Below, piece after piece: positions 2,172 to 32,313 of a stretch of 33,071 nucleotides of DNA; positions within the stretch are counted from its first letter, which is position 1; every line of letters begins with the position of its first letter. The notes beneath the pieces were generated by a model. It was not told the DNA's origin. It made no database searches and was given only the letters and a program-made list of their open reading frames with translations. The stretch comes from Treponema sp. GTDB lineage: Bacteria > Spirochaetota > Spirochaetia > Treponematales > Breznakiellaceae. The stretch spans positions 1 through 33,071 of the forward strand of contig JAISNI010000204.1 of assembly GCA_031276295.1 (NCBI GenBank). Reading direction: 5' to 3'. The position numbers were made by a program, and so were the translations under genes.

Positions 2172-3956
2172 ATGAAAAGTTTACGGACAACATTCTTTAT
2201 TTTAATCGTAAGCCTCTGTATTATTGTATCTTTTGGTATGGGGATGTTGATGTATATACAGTATACAAACTATATCAAGCAGAATTATAGGGGCGCCCTC
2301 GAACAAGTAGGCCGGACTGTAGAACATATCTACCCGGTAATCAGGGATAAAGAGGCTCTTATCCAAATCGGCAGCGATCACGCTGACGAATACAATGTAA
2401 TGCTTACAGGCCTGAAGAATATAGCGGAAAATTTTAATATCGCCTATATCTATTTTATTGAAAAGGAAGGCAATGGATACCGGTTTATTTTTGATATTGA
2501 TGATATTGATTTAAGTGAGGAAGAATACGAGGAGGCTTTTCTTGAAAGTTATGACGATCCTCCCGACGAGCTTATCGAGGCATTTGATTCCAAAGTACCG
2601 GTCGTAACCCAAAAGCCCTATACCGATGAATACGGTACCTTTGTTTCAGCTTTTCTCCCTGTCTTTGATGATAAGGGCGGTATAACCGGTATGCTTTGTC
2701 TGGATTACGATATTTCCTATGTGCAGATACTGGAAAGGCAGGCAATTATCAGCTTTATTGTTGGTATGGCAATATCGGCAGGCATTGCCAGCATCTTGTC
2801 GCTCCGTATTGCTATCTCCCTGATAGCGCCGATTAAGGAAGTTACGATTGCGGCAAACGCCTTGGCCGTGATGCGGTTTGACATCAAGACATCATCGGTG
2901 AGGAAGGATGAGATCGGGGAACTACAGAAAGCGCTTTATACCATACGGGACACCTTGAGGCAGACGATGGGGAAGCTGAACAACGAGCAGCTTGGGAAGC
3001 AGCTCAATATCAGCCGGAATCTGAATGCAATTATCAGGCGGTCGGCCGACGAACTGGTGGCGATAACGGGGAACGTCGATTTGGTACAGGGGAAGACGGA
3101 GCATGAGGTGAAGTCGGTGTTGGACACATCGGCGTCGGTGGAAGATATCATTAAAAACATCAATACCCTGAACAACGCGGTGGAGACCCAGTCGGTTAAT
3201 ATAGCGAGTTCGTCGTCAGCCATAGAGAAGATGGTCGACGACATCGGATCGATACGGTCTGTGGTACACGAGGCGAACAGGACGACGGAAAGCCTGGGGA
3301 ACTCGTCGGATTCGGGAAGACAGATGATAGAGCGGCTGACGGGGGAGTTGGCGCGGCTGACCGAGCAGTCGAAGGTACTGGAAGATGCGAACGGGACCAT
3401 ATCGAATATAGCGGCGCAGACGAATATACTGGCGATGAATGCGGCGATAGAAGCGGCTCATGCGGGTGAAGCGGGGAAGGGATTTGCGGTGGTGGCCAGT
3501 GAGGTGAGAAAGCTGGCGGAATTGTCGAACAAGGAATCGGCGTCGATAACCGAAGAGATACGGAAGATGGAAGAAGCGATAGTACAGATGAGGCAGGTAT
3601 CGGTGGAGACGGTCGAGATGATGAACACGATGTTTATAAAGATAGGGGAGATGGGGGATTCGTTTAATACGATAAACAGTGCGATAGAAGCGGAGGCGAA
3701 GAATGGGGTGCAGATACTGGAAGCGTTAAAGACGATGAGGGAGATGATAGAAGAGGTAAAGCGGGGGAGCGGGAAGATACGGCAGGGGAGCGTGGTGATA
3801 CATGGTACATTTGAGGAGTTAAAAGAAGCATCGCGGGAGGTGAACGAAAGTGTAATGGATGTGCAGGCGGTGAGCAAGCATATATCGGAATCTCTTACGA
3901 TGGCCAATAAGATAGTAATGGGTAAGGTGATAATGAAGCCCCAGAATAAAACATAG
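2172..3956 (+). CDS. Methyl-accepting chemotaxis protein
   Basis: Transmembrane chemoreceptor of 594 aa that would signal to CheA/CheW. TM1 lies at about residues 7-29. A periplasmic sensor of Cache-like character spans about 30-190 (it contains [20 protein letters not shown] and [25 protein letters not shown]). TM2 is at about 191-213 and HAMP at about 214-268. The signalling domain holds the conserved hairpin tip at about 411-450 ([28 protein letters not shown] in two halves), which binds CheA/CheW. Methylation-type Glu/Gln helices flank it. The ligand cannot be deduced. A Shine-Dalgarno AGGGATA precedes the ATG. Base use changes sharply near 2890, inside HAMP: the sensor half is mixed, whereas the signalling half is rich in GGG, ATA, GCG and AAG codons. 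This suggests recombination or gene conversion with a paralogous receptor. Confidence 0.95.
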
Positions 3957-3998
3957 TAGCCTGTTGTACTAGAGAAAAAGACTCGAGGAGAAACTATC

Positions 3999-15471: not shown

Positions 15472-16542
15472 TTAGACCTTAATATGCAGTTCCCCCGCAA
15501 TGCCTTTGAGCGTCTCCCAGACTCCGTCTTCAAGCCGCACCCCTTCAGTATCGGCGCGCTTATCCGCTTCGTGTTCCTTTAAACCCGCATAATAGACCCG
15601 TTCCGCCGCTTCTACCGGAGGAAGCGCGCTCAGGGCATTCAGCATGTGGGACATATCCTGCTTAAAATCTTCAGGCGGTCTGAAAAGATCGATCCGGAGT
15701 GCCATAAAGAAATGGCAGACCCTGGCTGCCGTAATCTCGGAATCCTGAACATCAGCCCCAAAGGTTCCGCCCGAACAGAGCGCGGTAAGTATATCCACCA
15801 TTACGGCAAGGCCGTAGCCCTTGTAACCGCCGGCAATTTCCCCCTCCCCTCCTAGAGGGAGCAAGCCGCCGCCCCTGCGGTGCAGGGTATCGTCCAGCAA
15901 GCTCACCGGATCGGTAGTTATCCGCCCCTTCGTGTCTACCGCCCACAGAGGCGGCAGTTTTTTTCCTTCACGTTGGTATACCTCAATCTTACCCCGCGTA
16001 ACCGTCGTCGTAGCCATATCCAGGCTGAACATCTGACCGTCCAGACCGGGGGCGGCAAAGGCAATAGGGTTCGTACCGAACACGGCCTTACGCGCAAAGG
16101 TCGGTACGCCCAGAGCAGCGGTATTGGTCATGGATATGCCTATCATATCGCGTTTGGCGGCCATTTCCGCATAGTACGCCGCAATCCCAAAATGATTGGA
16201 ATTGCGTATACTGCATACGCCTACACCGTTTGTTTCAGCCTTGGACATCACCTTTTCCATGGCCCTCTTGCTCAGGGAAAGCCCCATCGCTCCCCGTCCG
16301 TCTAAAACCAGGGAAATAGGCGTTTCCCGGATAGTTTCCGGTTCAATACGCGGCTTGATAAAGCCGGCCCTGATCCCGTCCACATAGCGCTTTATCCGCG
16401 CAACCCCATGACTCCTTATCCCGCGGGCATCAGCGGCAACAAGTATCCTGGCGGAATCCCCCGCTTCTTCTTCTGAAAATCCTAAACTGTAAAAAATACC
16501 GCTACAAAGCCTTTCAAGCTCGTTACGGGGAATGAACACCAT
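15472..16542 (-). CDS. Malate/L-lactate dehydrogenase (Ldh_2) family oxidoreductase
   Basis: A 356-aa NAD(P)-dependent dehydrogenase with the fold unrelated to classical LDH (relatives: YlbC/AllD ureidoglycolate, ComC sulfolactate, YiaK diketogulonate and YbiC hydroxycarboxylate dehydrogenases). Family markers seen are ARGIRSHGVARI near residue 40, RNSNHFGIAAYYAEMA near 112, and MTNTAALGVPTFARKAVFGTNPIAFAAP near 138-165, including the catalytic-type His in SHG and NHFG. Substrate cannot be assigned from sequence. A strong AAGGAGG lies 6 nt before the ATG, and on the minus strand a TATAAT occurs at 16564-16569 with an unclear -35. A terminator follows it, so it is probably monocistronic. Confidence 0.88.
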   Translation of the reverse strand: MVFIPRNELERLCSGIFYSLGFSEEEAGDSARILVAADARGIRSHGVARIKRYVDGIRAGFIKPRIEPETIRETPISLVLDGRGAMGLSLSKRAMEKVMSKAETNGVGVCSIRNSNHFGIAAYYAEMAAKRDMIGISMTNTAALGVPTFARKAVFGTNPIAFAAPGLDGQMFSLDMATTTVTRGKIEVYQREGKKLPPLWAVDTKGRITTDPVSLLDDTLHRRGGGLLPLGGEGEIAGGYKGYGLAVMVDILTALCSGGTFGADVQDSEITAARVCHFFMALRIDLFRPPEDFKQDMSHMLNALSALPPVEAAERVYYAGLKEHEADKRADTEGVRLEDGVWETLKGIAGELHIKV

Positions 16543-16599: not shown

Positions 16600-17085
16600 T
16601 TGGGATTGACAGTATTACGGCAGGACTTGCAAACGGCCTTGAACGATGCAAAACAGTCGAAGACATCTTTGCGGAACTTGACCGATTTGCACGGGACCTC
16701 GTTGACAAGAATATCAAACTTAGAAACCTGCAACGACCATATCGGCCGGCGGATGCAGGAAAATGATGAGTGGAACGCCGAGCAGCCTGTTGCACTTGTG
16801 GATTTTTTGCATCGGACCTTTGGTCCGCTTTATACAAAAAATCCCGATAATCGGGGTTGCTTATGCAGTTTGTAAGGTATAAAAATTCACTTCCGTGAAT
16901 TTTTATACGATTTTGCGCTGAAGCGCAACAAACTGCGAGCTTCAGGAAGATACTATAAAACTGGAAGCCGAAACCAAAGTAGCGAAAGCACGCGGTTTAC
17001 GGAATATCATTATTGCCGGAATAGGCGGCCTTGCACTGGGACGCCTTATCTGTTTGTTGAATCAACCGAGTTCATTTTTTCTAAG
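16600..17085 (+). pseudogene. Decayed coiled-coil/membrane-anchor gene split by a small insertion element
   Basis: The left part (16600-16782, TTG or no true start) encodes a coiled coil: LTVLRQDLQTALNDAKQ... ending EWNAE. The right part (16940 on) encodes LQEDTIKLEAETKVAKARG, then a membrane helix NIIIAGIGGLALGRLICLL. The two are separated by 153 bp of hairpin-rich DNA plus a 4-bp duplication. Removing 16783-16939 joins GCC GAG to CTT CAG in the same frame. The 5' end is missing, since an in-frame stop lies at 16573-16575 with no good start after it, and the 3' end runs into tRNA-Leu without its own stop. Coiled coil plus C-terminal TM resembles small phage or mobile-element membrane proteins, but I cannot name a family. 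An alternative overlapping frame from 16545 gives a helical peptide ending at 16766 and is judged a shadow. Confidence 0.65.
16783..16935. mobile_element. MITE-like hairpin-rich insertion, 153 bp, with 4-bp target duplication
   Basis: The ends are CAGCCTGTTGCACTT (16783-16797) and, inverted, CAGTTTGTTGCGCTT (16921-16935): 12 of 15 match. CGAG flanks both sides (16779-16782 and 16936-16939). Inside are several perfect hairpins: GGATTTTTTG/CAAAAAATCC (16800-16809, 16835-16844) enclosing CGGACC/GGTCCG (16813-16827); CCCGA/TCGGG (16843-16855); a 14-bp GTATAAAAATTCAC/GTGAATTTTTATAC with a 4-nt loop (16877-16908); and GCGCT/AGCGC (16915-16926). It has no coding capacity. It should be non-autonomous, moved by a transposase elsewhere. 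Confidence 0.7.
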
Positions 17086-17095
17086 GAATTACATA

Positions 17096-17178
17096 TACCG
17101 GCGATCGGACTTGAACCGATATGTCCTCACGGACAGTAGATTTTGAGTCTACCGTGTCTGCCATTTCACCACGCCGGC
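17096..17178 (-). tRNA. tRNA-Leu (anticodon CAA)
   Basis: Read on the minus strand, 83 nt. Acceptor GCCGGCG pairs with CGCCGGT (first pair G-U) and the discriminator is A. The D-arm contains GTGAAATGGCAGAC. The anticodon stem is GTAGA/TCTAC with loop CTCAAAA, giving anticodon CAA (codon UUG). A long class II variable arm TGTCCGTGAGGACA and the T-arm TCGGTTCAAGTCCGA follow. The CCA end is not encoded. The decayed coiled-coil gene abuts its 3' end, the usual side for integration of mobile elements. Confidence 0.93.
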
Positions 17179-17183
17179 AAAGG

Positions 17184-30595: not shown

Positions 30596-32107
30596 ATGAG
30601 CATAAGCCCTGTGAGAGAATACCTGAGTACCGTTAAGCCTGAAAAAGTGATCCCCGGATTTCTGGCCTATCTTTGTAATTTGGAGGAGGCGGCAAAGGTT
30701 TCTCCTGAAATTTCAGCTTCTATTGTAAGGGAACTTGAGAACCAGCGGAAGCGGATTAAACTTATTGCCAGCGAAAATTACTGTTCCCTGGCTGTTCAGC
30801 TTGCTATGGGAAACCTTTTAACCGATAAATACGCGGAAGGAATGCCGAATCATCGTTTCTATGCGGGGAACGAAAATGTGGATGCAGTTGAATCCCTGGC
30901 TGCGGCGGAAGCGCGGAAGCTCTTTAATGCGGAATACGCCAACGTGCAGCCTCACTGCGGCGCGGATGCGAATGTTCTTGCCTATTGGGCTATTCTTTCC
31001 GCACGGGTCGAGGCGCCGGCTTTGAAGAAATACGGCGAGAGCAACCTTTACAAACTTTCCGATGCCCAGTGGAAGGAACTCAAGGCGGATTTGGGAAAGC
31101 AGCGCCTGCTTGGGCTTGATTACTATTCGGGCGGACACCTTACCCACGGGTACCGCTACAATATTTCAGCCCATATCTTCGATGTCTACAGCTATTCGGT
31201 TTCCCCTGAGACCGGTCTTTTGGATTATGACGATATAGAAAAAAAGACGCTGGAGATAAGGCCCCTCATCCTGCTGGCCGGTTATTCGGCCTATCCCCGT
31301 AAGATTAATTTTGCCAGAATGCGGGAAATTGCCGATAAGGCCGGGGCTGTTTTTATGGTGGACATGGCACACTTTGCGGGACTTGTTGCCGGCAAGGTGT
31401 TTACCGGCGACTACGATCCCGTGCCTCACGCCCATGTCGTTACCAGCACTACCCACAAGACCCTCCGCGGGCCGCGGGCCGGCCTGGTGCTCTCTACCGC
31501 GGAATTTGCCGAAGCCCTGGACAAGGGCTGCCCCCTTACGATGGGCGGCCCCCTGCCGCATGTCATCGCGGCCAAAGCCATCGCATTCAGGGAGGCGGGA
31601 CAACCTGAGTTTCAGGACTATGCTCGGCGTATTGTGGAGAACTGTCAGGCTATGGCCGCTTCCTGCATGAATAACGGCCTTGAGGTGCTTACCGGCGGTA
31701 CGGACAACCACCTGTTCCTGGTGAATGTACGCAATCTGGGGATCACGGGCAGGCAGGCGGAAAGCGCGCTGCTTGAATGTAACATCACCCTTAACCGGAA
31801 CAGCCTGCCCCGCGATCCCAACGGCCCCTGGTATACTTCCGGCCTGCGCATAGGCAGCGCCGCGGTAACAACCCTGGGTATGGGTAAAGATGATGTCGCG
31901 GAAATTGGAAATATAATTTCCCTGGTACTCAGGCATACGGCCCCGGCATCCGATCCAAAGATCCCGTCCAGAAAGAGCAAAGCCCGGTATGTGATTGATC
32001 CGGCGGCAAAGGCCGAAGCTCTGGACCGGGTGGAGAAGCTCCTTTCACGGTATCCGGTATACCCTGAACTGGATTTGGCCCTGCTCAAAAAAGCCTTTGT
32101 ACGGTAG
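30596..32107 (+). CDS. glyA: Serine hydroxymethyltransferase (long spirochaetal form)
   Basis: PLP enzyme that interconverts serine and glycine with tetrahydrofolate, the main source of one-carbon units. At 503 aa it is some 80 residues longer than the usual 415-430. There is an N-terminal extension (1-40), and an insertion at about 136-175 (VEAPALKKYGES...LGKQRLLGL) sits between the first PLP-contact loop and the YYSGGHLTHG substrate region. The core is intact: LIASENYCS, LTDKYAEGMPNHRFYAG, QPHCGADANV, VDMAHFAGLV (Asp256 for the pyridine N) and the Schiff-base STTHKTLRGPRAG with Lys288. The C-terminal GLRIGSAAVTTLGM holds the carboxylate Arg. Such long forms are known in Treponema. It has its own promoter and GGAG site, and an IS remnant begins directly after its stop. 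Confidence 0.95.
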   Translation: MSISPVREYLSTVKPEKVIPGFLAYLCNLEEAAKVSPEISASIVRELENQRKRIKLIASENYCSLAVQLAMGNLLTDKYAEGMPNHRFYAGNENVDAVESLAAAEARKLFNAEYANVQPHCGADANVLAYWAILSARVEAPALKKYGESNLYKLSDAQWKELKADLGKQRLLGLDYYSGGHLTHGYRYNISAHIFDVYSYSVSPETGLLDYDDIEKKTLEIRPLILLAGYSAYPRKINFARMREIADKAGAVFMVDMAHFAGLVAGKVFTGDYDPVPHAHVVTSTTHKTLRGPRAGLVLSTAEFAEALDKGCPLTMGGPLPHVIAAKAIAFREAGQPEFQDYARRIVENCQAMAASCMNNGLEVLTGGTDNHLFLVNVRNLGITGRQAESALLECNITLNRNSLPRDPNGPWYTSGLRIGSAAVTTLGMGKDDVAEIGNIISLVLRHTAPASDPKIPSRKSKARYVIDPAAKAEALDRVEKLLSRYPVYPELDLALLKKAFVR

Positions 32108-32109
32108 GG

Positions 32110-32313
32110 AATATCAGCGTTGCCGGGACGAAGGTACACGCGAACGCGAGCAAGTACCGCGCGATGGGCTATAAGCGGGCGGTAGAGATGATAGAGGAAA
32201 CGGAGAAGGAAGGAGTGGAACTGATAGCGAAGGTGGAGGAAGTGGACAGCCAGCCGTTGGAAGAGGGGCTGACGATACCGGAAGAGATAAAGAGGAGGAG
32301 GAAATTAATTTAC
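32110..32313 (+). pseudogene. Internal fragment of an IS1182-like transposase
   Basis: In one frame (no start needed) the DNA reads NISVAGTKVHANASKYRAMGYKR, then an acidic coiled segment EMIEETEKEGVELIAKVEEVD, then LTIPEEIKRRRKLI. The GTK-ANASK-KAM block followed by a Glu/Lys helix and LPEEI-RR is the middle of IS1182-family DDE transposases. Both ends are lost: the fragment begins right after the glyA stop codon and stops making sense after about 32313. The purine-rich codon style contrasts with glyA. It is a dead remnant and gives no terminal repeats by which to define an element. Confidence 0.65.

Follow-up and report, generated by a model that had tools for sequence, protein, structure and literature searches.

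The DNA analysed in our study, called the window below, is a stretch of 33,071 nucleotides from a Treponema sp. (assembly GCA_031276295.1, contig JAISNI010000204.1). It was found to contain a gene remnant, bounded by an Ldh_2 gene start at 16542 and by a tRNA-Leu (about 17095-17179), which is interrupted by a miniature inverted-repeat transposable element (MITE). The features of the locus are as follows.

16600-16782, plus strand: 5' part of the split outer frame, encoding a coiled-coil piece of a spanin-like phage protein; by homologue alignment its upstream portion is missing
16602-16766, plus strand: fragment of a nested lipoprotein-like frame (IDSITAGLANGLERCKTVEDIFAELDRF...DAGK and stop), the stop lying just 5' of the element
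16779-16782: CGAG, left copy of the 4-bp target duplication (family consensus CTAG)
16783-16935, plus strand: MITE copy of 153 bp with the left end CAGCCTGTTGCACTT and the right end CAGTTTGTTGCGCTT, having homologous copies in its own genome
16783-16797, plus strand: left terminal inverted repeat, 15 bp, all of them shared with the left end of a same-genus IS1182-type element of full length
16800-16844: hairpin 1, GGATTTTTTGCAT / ATACAAAAAATCC, with the apical 15-nt palindrome CGGACCTTTGGTCCG at 16813-16827
16865-16936: second folded half, in which a GCAGTTTGT/ACAAACTGC closing stem surrounds two hairpins, one of 14 bp (16877-16908) and a GCGC one near 16914-16929
16921-16935, minus strand: right terminal inverted repeat, 15 bp, 12/15 identical to the left repeat
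16936-16939: CGAG, right copy of the 4-bp target duplication, from flank comparison
16936-17065, plus strand: 3' part of the split frame with a membrane segment; homology stops near 17065 and the C-terminal end is replaced

The inverted ends CAGCCTGTTGCACTT and CAGTTTGTTGCGCTT (window 16783 and 16935) were identical at 12 of 15 positions. When 2.4 million position pairs were scanned across the window's first ~12 kb, no second pair combined inverted ends of at least 12/15 with identical flanks of 4 bp. The element contained a perfect 14-bp stem (16877-16890/16895-16908), a 13-bp stem that was 92% paired (16800-16812/16832-16844), and a perfect 9-bp stem (16865-16873/16928-16936), and the palindrome CGGACC-TTT-GGTCCG occupied 16813-16827. 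The minimum free energy of the 153-bp element was -67.6 kcal/mol (z -6.43), and 0 of 200 shuffles reached the same stability. No transposase gene was present in it; it is short and bounded by terminal inverted repeats, as a MITE is. A preliminary description of this DNA had reported the 15-bp ends with 12/15 identity, the CGAG on both sides, and the internal hairpins including the 14-bp stem, and all of these were recovered when rechecked.

The preliminary description had also proposed a search for further copies, and many were found. The genome that carries the window (3.38 Mb in 247 contigs, 83% complete) contained about 40 scored homologous copies. The end motif gave 259 matches in this genome vs 0 in the reversed control, and a stricter pattern gave 219 (that is, ~220-260 end matches); from these end counts, the total is estimated at about 110-130 copies. 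Enumerated by end pattern, at least 69 complete copies of 30-258 bp were resolved from the fetched loci. The size classes were 30 bp (6 copies), 36-57, 80, 119, 136-141, 149-157, 167-169, and 258 bp, of which 136-141 bp was the commonest (e.g., 138 bp in 15 copies). In short form, the ends of the element read CAGCCTGTTGC.../...GCAACAAACTG.

The 30-bp elements, as at C2:41048-41077, C23:14912-14941, C62:11752-11781, and C83:13416-13445, contained two terminal repeats back to back between CTAG-like flanks; they represent minimal MITEs, the end-products of deletions, or else palindromes that were vacated or serve as targets. Other elements contained only hairpin 1, the right half being missing or replaced (C12:9663, C35:11880, C80:10386, C108:6856, and C154:9106), which suggests breakage between the two folded halves. 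Two isolated ends belonging to this family were also present in the window itself, CTAGCAGCCTGTTGCGCTTTGACCCC at 364 on the minus strand (350-369) and CATAGTAGCCTGTTGTACT at 3957 on the plus strand (3951-3971), which are probably element remnants.

The sole same-genus genome searched contained 379 ends. Matching ends were present in 37 of 99 relatives, all of the same family except for one order-level genome with two matches. In the species-level genome collection, an exact 32-nt left-end query had 92 matching stretches, and the titles listed for these matches were Treponema or Spirochaetaceae MAGs, plus one Prevotellaceae-binned contig. The isolate codes of the matching MAGs point to termite guts as their source. 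The Prevotellaceae-binned contig (L107, JAISRS010000055.1, bin Kf353_bin76) contained an exact element end near the contig edge; it is likely a mis-binned Treponema contig of the same sample, the alternative being a cross-phylum transfer. No Treponema MITE was apparent from the titles and abstract openings of the literature on miniature inverted-repeat transposable elements and Treponema.

The hairpins were compared among the copies with the structure of the window copy as reference, because RNAalifold on the mixed alignment, in which the modules shift, gave few pairs. The stems of the window copy were paired in 93.5% of cells across 37 copies from its own genome and relatives. Two-sided changes were found in 13 of 40 stem pairs, with 44 such cells vs 10.8 in shuffles. 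When the partners were slid, pairing dropped to 35-49%, the reference having a mild advantage over the slid versions as the window copy is itself one of the copies. The 15-nt palindrome CGGACCTTTGGTCCG was present or absent at two places among the copies. It was also considered as an independent mobile hairpin and rejected, since of its 22 copies in the genome nearly all, 21 as judged by eye, lay within elements or element fragments.

A structured-RNA or terminator function had been suggested for the hairpins in the preliminary description. A main role of the element as structured RNA or bidirectional terminator, with its repetition incidental and its hairpins selected as RNA, would agree with the very stable fold, the excess of two-sided stem changes over shuffles, and the loss of pairing on sliding. 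RNA selection on one strand, however, should favour G-U, and the non-Watson-Crick cells were symmetric, with 38 G-U vs 35 A-C; this argues for palindromes kept at the DNA level and against a structured RNA, the comparison being indicative only, as copies of common descent are not independent. Folding was also equally strong on the two strands (-56.6 and -58.1 kcal/mol on average), and the copies of 30-56 bp were devoid of these hairpins. The element was unmatched in Rfam 15 at the gathering score, the sole match in the window being the tRNA at 17096-17178. One weak terminator-like site was found in the element, where ~0.7 were expected by chance in the scanned region. A function as RNA or terminator is thus unlikely, and this suggestion was not upheld.

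The pairing of the stems is better read as that of DNA palindromes, which would be maintained by cruciform or template-switch effects. It is possible, but on balance doubtful, that the internal palindromes are actively maintained at the DNA level as exchangeable modules, through cruciforms or single-strand hairpins or through template-switch homogenisation. Hairpins would then be gained, lost, and paired anew between constant ends as the MITE diversifies, with the 30-bp two-end elements as the lower limit.

The element was said in the preliminary description to split a gene. The frame is indeed interrupted; the host, however, was already a remnant truncated at both ends, as the split "gene" lacked the N-terminal ~60-90 residues and the C-terminal end of its homologues. 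Because only the middle part of the homologue is kept, the host of the MITE is a prophage remnant and not a working gene. The full-length homologues were 172 aa (L087:1462-1993, minus strand) and 199 aa (L089:1237-1836, plus strand) long, and each encloses a nested second frame of ~120 residues with a lipoprotein-signal-like start. These nested frames would correspond to the overlapping i-spanin/o-spanin layout of a prophage lysis cassette. The neighbourhood of L087 contained a YkuD-type L,D-transpeptidase and a weak integrase match (phrog_1), and L089 weakly matched Rz-like spanins (E 0.0078). The joined gene had no match in the phage collection by tblastn. The outer spanin-like protein of these spirochaete prophage genes, L087 and L089, was composed of a coiled coil and a C-terminal membrane segment, with the lipoprotein-like frame nested inside it. 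A C-terminal membrane anchor would be unusual for an i-spanin.

Deletion of the element and one CGAG fused EWNAE in frame to LQEDTIKLEAE, as had been claimed, and the uninterrupted homologues proposed as a check were found. With the joined sequence of 103 residues as query, homologues crossed the junction uninterrupted and without the element sequence in three genomes, at 71% (G141), 71% (G118), and 63% (G028) identity. The protein alignment at the junction was gapless, reading ...(D)(E/Q)WNAE-LQ... with the junction at the hyphen, and the homologues contained EWNAELQ(E/K)(D/E). In the DNA, the homologues contained GCCGAACTC, GCAGAACTC, or GCCGAACTT, where the window contained GCCGAG-element-CGAGCTT. 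The empty site was seen in uninterrupted homologues of the split gene, which belong to other genera rather than to another strain of the species. Judged by this alignment, the insertion at the window locus duplicated 4 bp and no sequence was lost. A second in-gene copy, of 56 bp (C207:16094-16149), was flanked by CCAG on both sides and split a sugar-kinase-type gene. Its joined flanks gave a 404-residue open frame with the Pfam domains SBD_N and NBD_C, and NBD_C (231-391) crosses the junction at residue 298.

The flank consensus of the 69 copies was CTAG on both sides, with the consensus base of each position present in 53-65 copies and no comparable consensus past 4 bp. Identical flanking 4-mers were found in 30 of 69 copies, and identical 5-mers in none. 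The unequal flanks of the other 39 copies fit with age, yet they weaken the duplication test. CTAG could belong to the inverted repeat because it is palindromic, and for the same reason the copies with CTAG on neither flank decide for a direct duplication. There were 13 such copies, 5 of them with identical flanks vs 1.0 expected (P about 0.001), and 4 of those 5 were non-palindromic direct repeats (CTAT twice, CTGG, and CGAG). A permutation test on all 44 copies other than CTAG/CTAG gave no excess of equal flanks (P 0.82), which is what old duplications with a mutation in one of their two copies should give. The flanks of the element are a 4-bp target duplication with the consensus CTAG, for which the window copy used CGAG.

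The same junctions bear on an insertion in the mode of IS1272, in which a target stem-loop would be replaced and no tetranucleotide duplicated. IS1272 is of the same transposase family and replaces inverted repeats (21-38 bp in GN genomes) without duplication (PMC5678879), and the 30-bp two-end palindromes of the present genome could be vacated or target sites. At the window junction, however, the codons of the homologues are contiguous, with nothing missing and 4 bp duplicated, and the sugar-kinase copy also has an exact 4-bp duplication. Neither in-gene site has the form of a replaced inverted repeat, and we regard this mode as very unlikely.

That the element is non-autonomous, MITE-like, and mobilised from elsewhere, as had been proposed, agrees with its copies, its duplication, and the insertion sequences (IS) found to share its ends, for which a search had likewise been advised. 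Two full-length, decayed ISs were found, each with CTAG on both sides. The one from the same genus (L068) was 1762 bp long, its left end identical to that of the MITE at 15 of 15 positions, and the one from the same order (L067) was 1449 bp long with the same ends. They matched the IS1182 transposase profile NF033551 at E 2.6e-55 and 1.8e-41, respectively, under the curated whole-protein cut-off because the genes are broken; DUF772 was over its cut-off. An internally deleted IS1182 element of 610 bp with the same ends (L079:1315-1924, genome G001) was intermediate in size between IS and MITE, and IS1182 fragments in the genome of the window adjoin the same ends (L062 and L078). A further IS1182-type transposase fragment was present in the window at 32095-32310 (plus strand), 74% identical over 39 residues to L062 and apparently without ends nearby.

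No intact transposase with the ends of the MITE was found in 16 genomes, whose assemblies are fragmented, and two intact IS1182 transposases in the family (G079 and G014) had other ends; the mobiliser may have died out or been lost from the assemblies. The viral contigs contained no relatives of the transposase. Beyond the 15-bp ends, the MITE and the ISs had no significant shared sequence, and such lack of likeness outside the ends is usual among prokaryotic MITEs (PMC3852290).

We consider it very probable that an IS1182-type transposase mobilised the element, a MITE, in trans, with a CTAG-like target and a 4-bp duplication, and that the element landed in a decaying prophage remnant. The DDE/DUF772 transposase of an IS1182-type insertion sequence would bind the 15-bp ends (CAGCCTGTTGCRCTT / CAGTTTGTTGCGCTT) in trans, and a 4-bp staggered cut at a CTAG-like tetranucleotide would let the element insert, leaving a 4-bp direct duplication, here CGAG. 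The window copy would thereby have entered a decaying fragment of a prophage lysis gene beside the tRNA-Leu. The internal hairpins, as DNA palindromes, are probably dispensable for mobility, because the copies of 30-56 bp, with little beyond the two ends, also sit between CTAG-like flanks. An origin as a palindromic repeat of the REP/BIME kind, disseminated by a RAYT-type (HUH) transposase, would suit the high copy number and the palindromic modules, but can be virtually dismissed, given the true terminal inverted repeats, the 4-bp target duplication, and the full-length elements with the same ends, which were DDE/IS1182 only. Target duplications are not expected for HUH-mobilised REPs.

The "undescribed type" of the preliminary description was too strong, as the ends match those of IS1182-family ISs and an IS1182-related MITE, MITEPye1 of Paracoccus yeei, has been published (PMC11578231). 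MITEPye1 is likewise short and non-autonomous, with IS1182-like end repeats, flanking direct repeats, and long stem-loops. It differs, however, in having 18-bp ends and only 1-3 copies per chromosome, whereas the Treponema element has ~110-130 copies, other ends, a CTAG preference, modular sizes of 30-258 bp, and a host of a different phylum. The IS1182-family ISs have a 4-bp target duplication and ends of ~15-16 bp, as in ISPse1 (1653 bp, 16/16 ends, 4-bp duplication; PMC3281130), and the NF033551/DUF772 transposase occurs in the full-length relatives of our element, which itself has no transposase gene and has the ends alone in common with them. An IS1182-related MITE with a 4-bp duplication is therefore of a known kind (PMC11578231; PMC3281130), and this one is new and much more abundant. 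IS1272 resembles it in transposase family and palindrome-related biology, but replaces stem-loop targets without duplication (PMC5678879), whereas the window copy duplicated 4 bp and removed nothing.

MITEAba12 of Acinetobacter (PMC6382973) is also a short MITE mobilised by a co-resident IS and inserting in genes. It had recognisable duplications in 40% of copies, similar to the 30/69 in Treponema, but differs in its parent (ISAba12), its 9-bp duplication, and its uniform size of 111-114 bp. The intergenic repeats of Borrelia plasmids (PMC2674063) are spirochaete repeats whose stems stay paired via two-sided changes, and a possible MITE link was raised for them. Unlike the Treponema element, they are short single stem-loops with few copies, for which a target duplication or parent IS is not shown.

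For uncultured Treponema of termite guts, this element provides an abundant repeat family, tied to a named transposase family and to a CTAG target. Many of the copies lie near contig ends and may account for part of the fragmentation in these genome bins. The strand-symmetric covariation makes a natural test of whether RNA function or the maintenance of DNA palindromes underlies the paired changes of bacterial repeats; mixing up the two can yield false structured-RNA calls.
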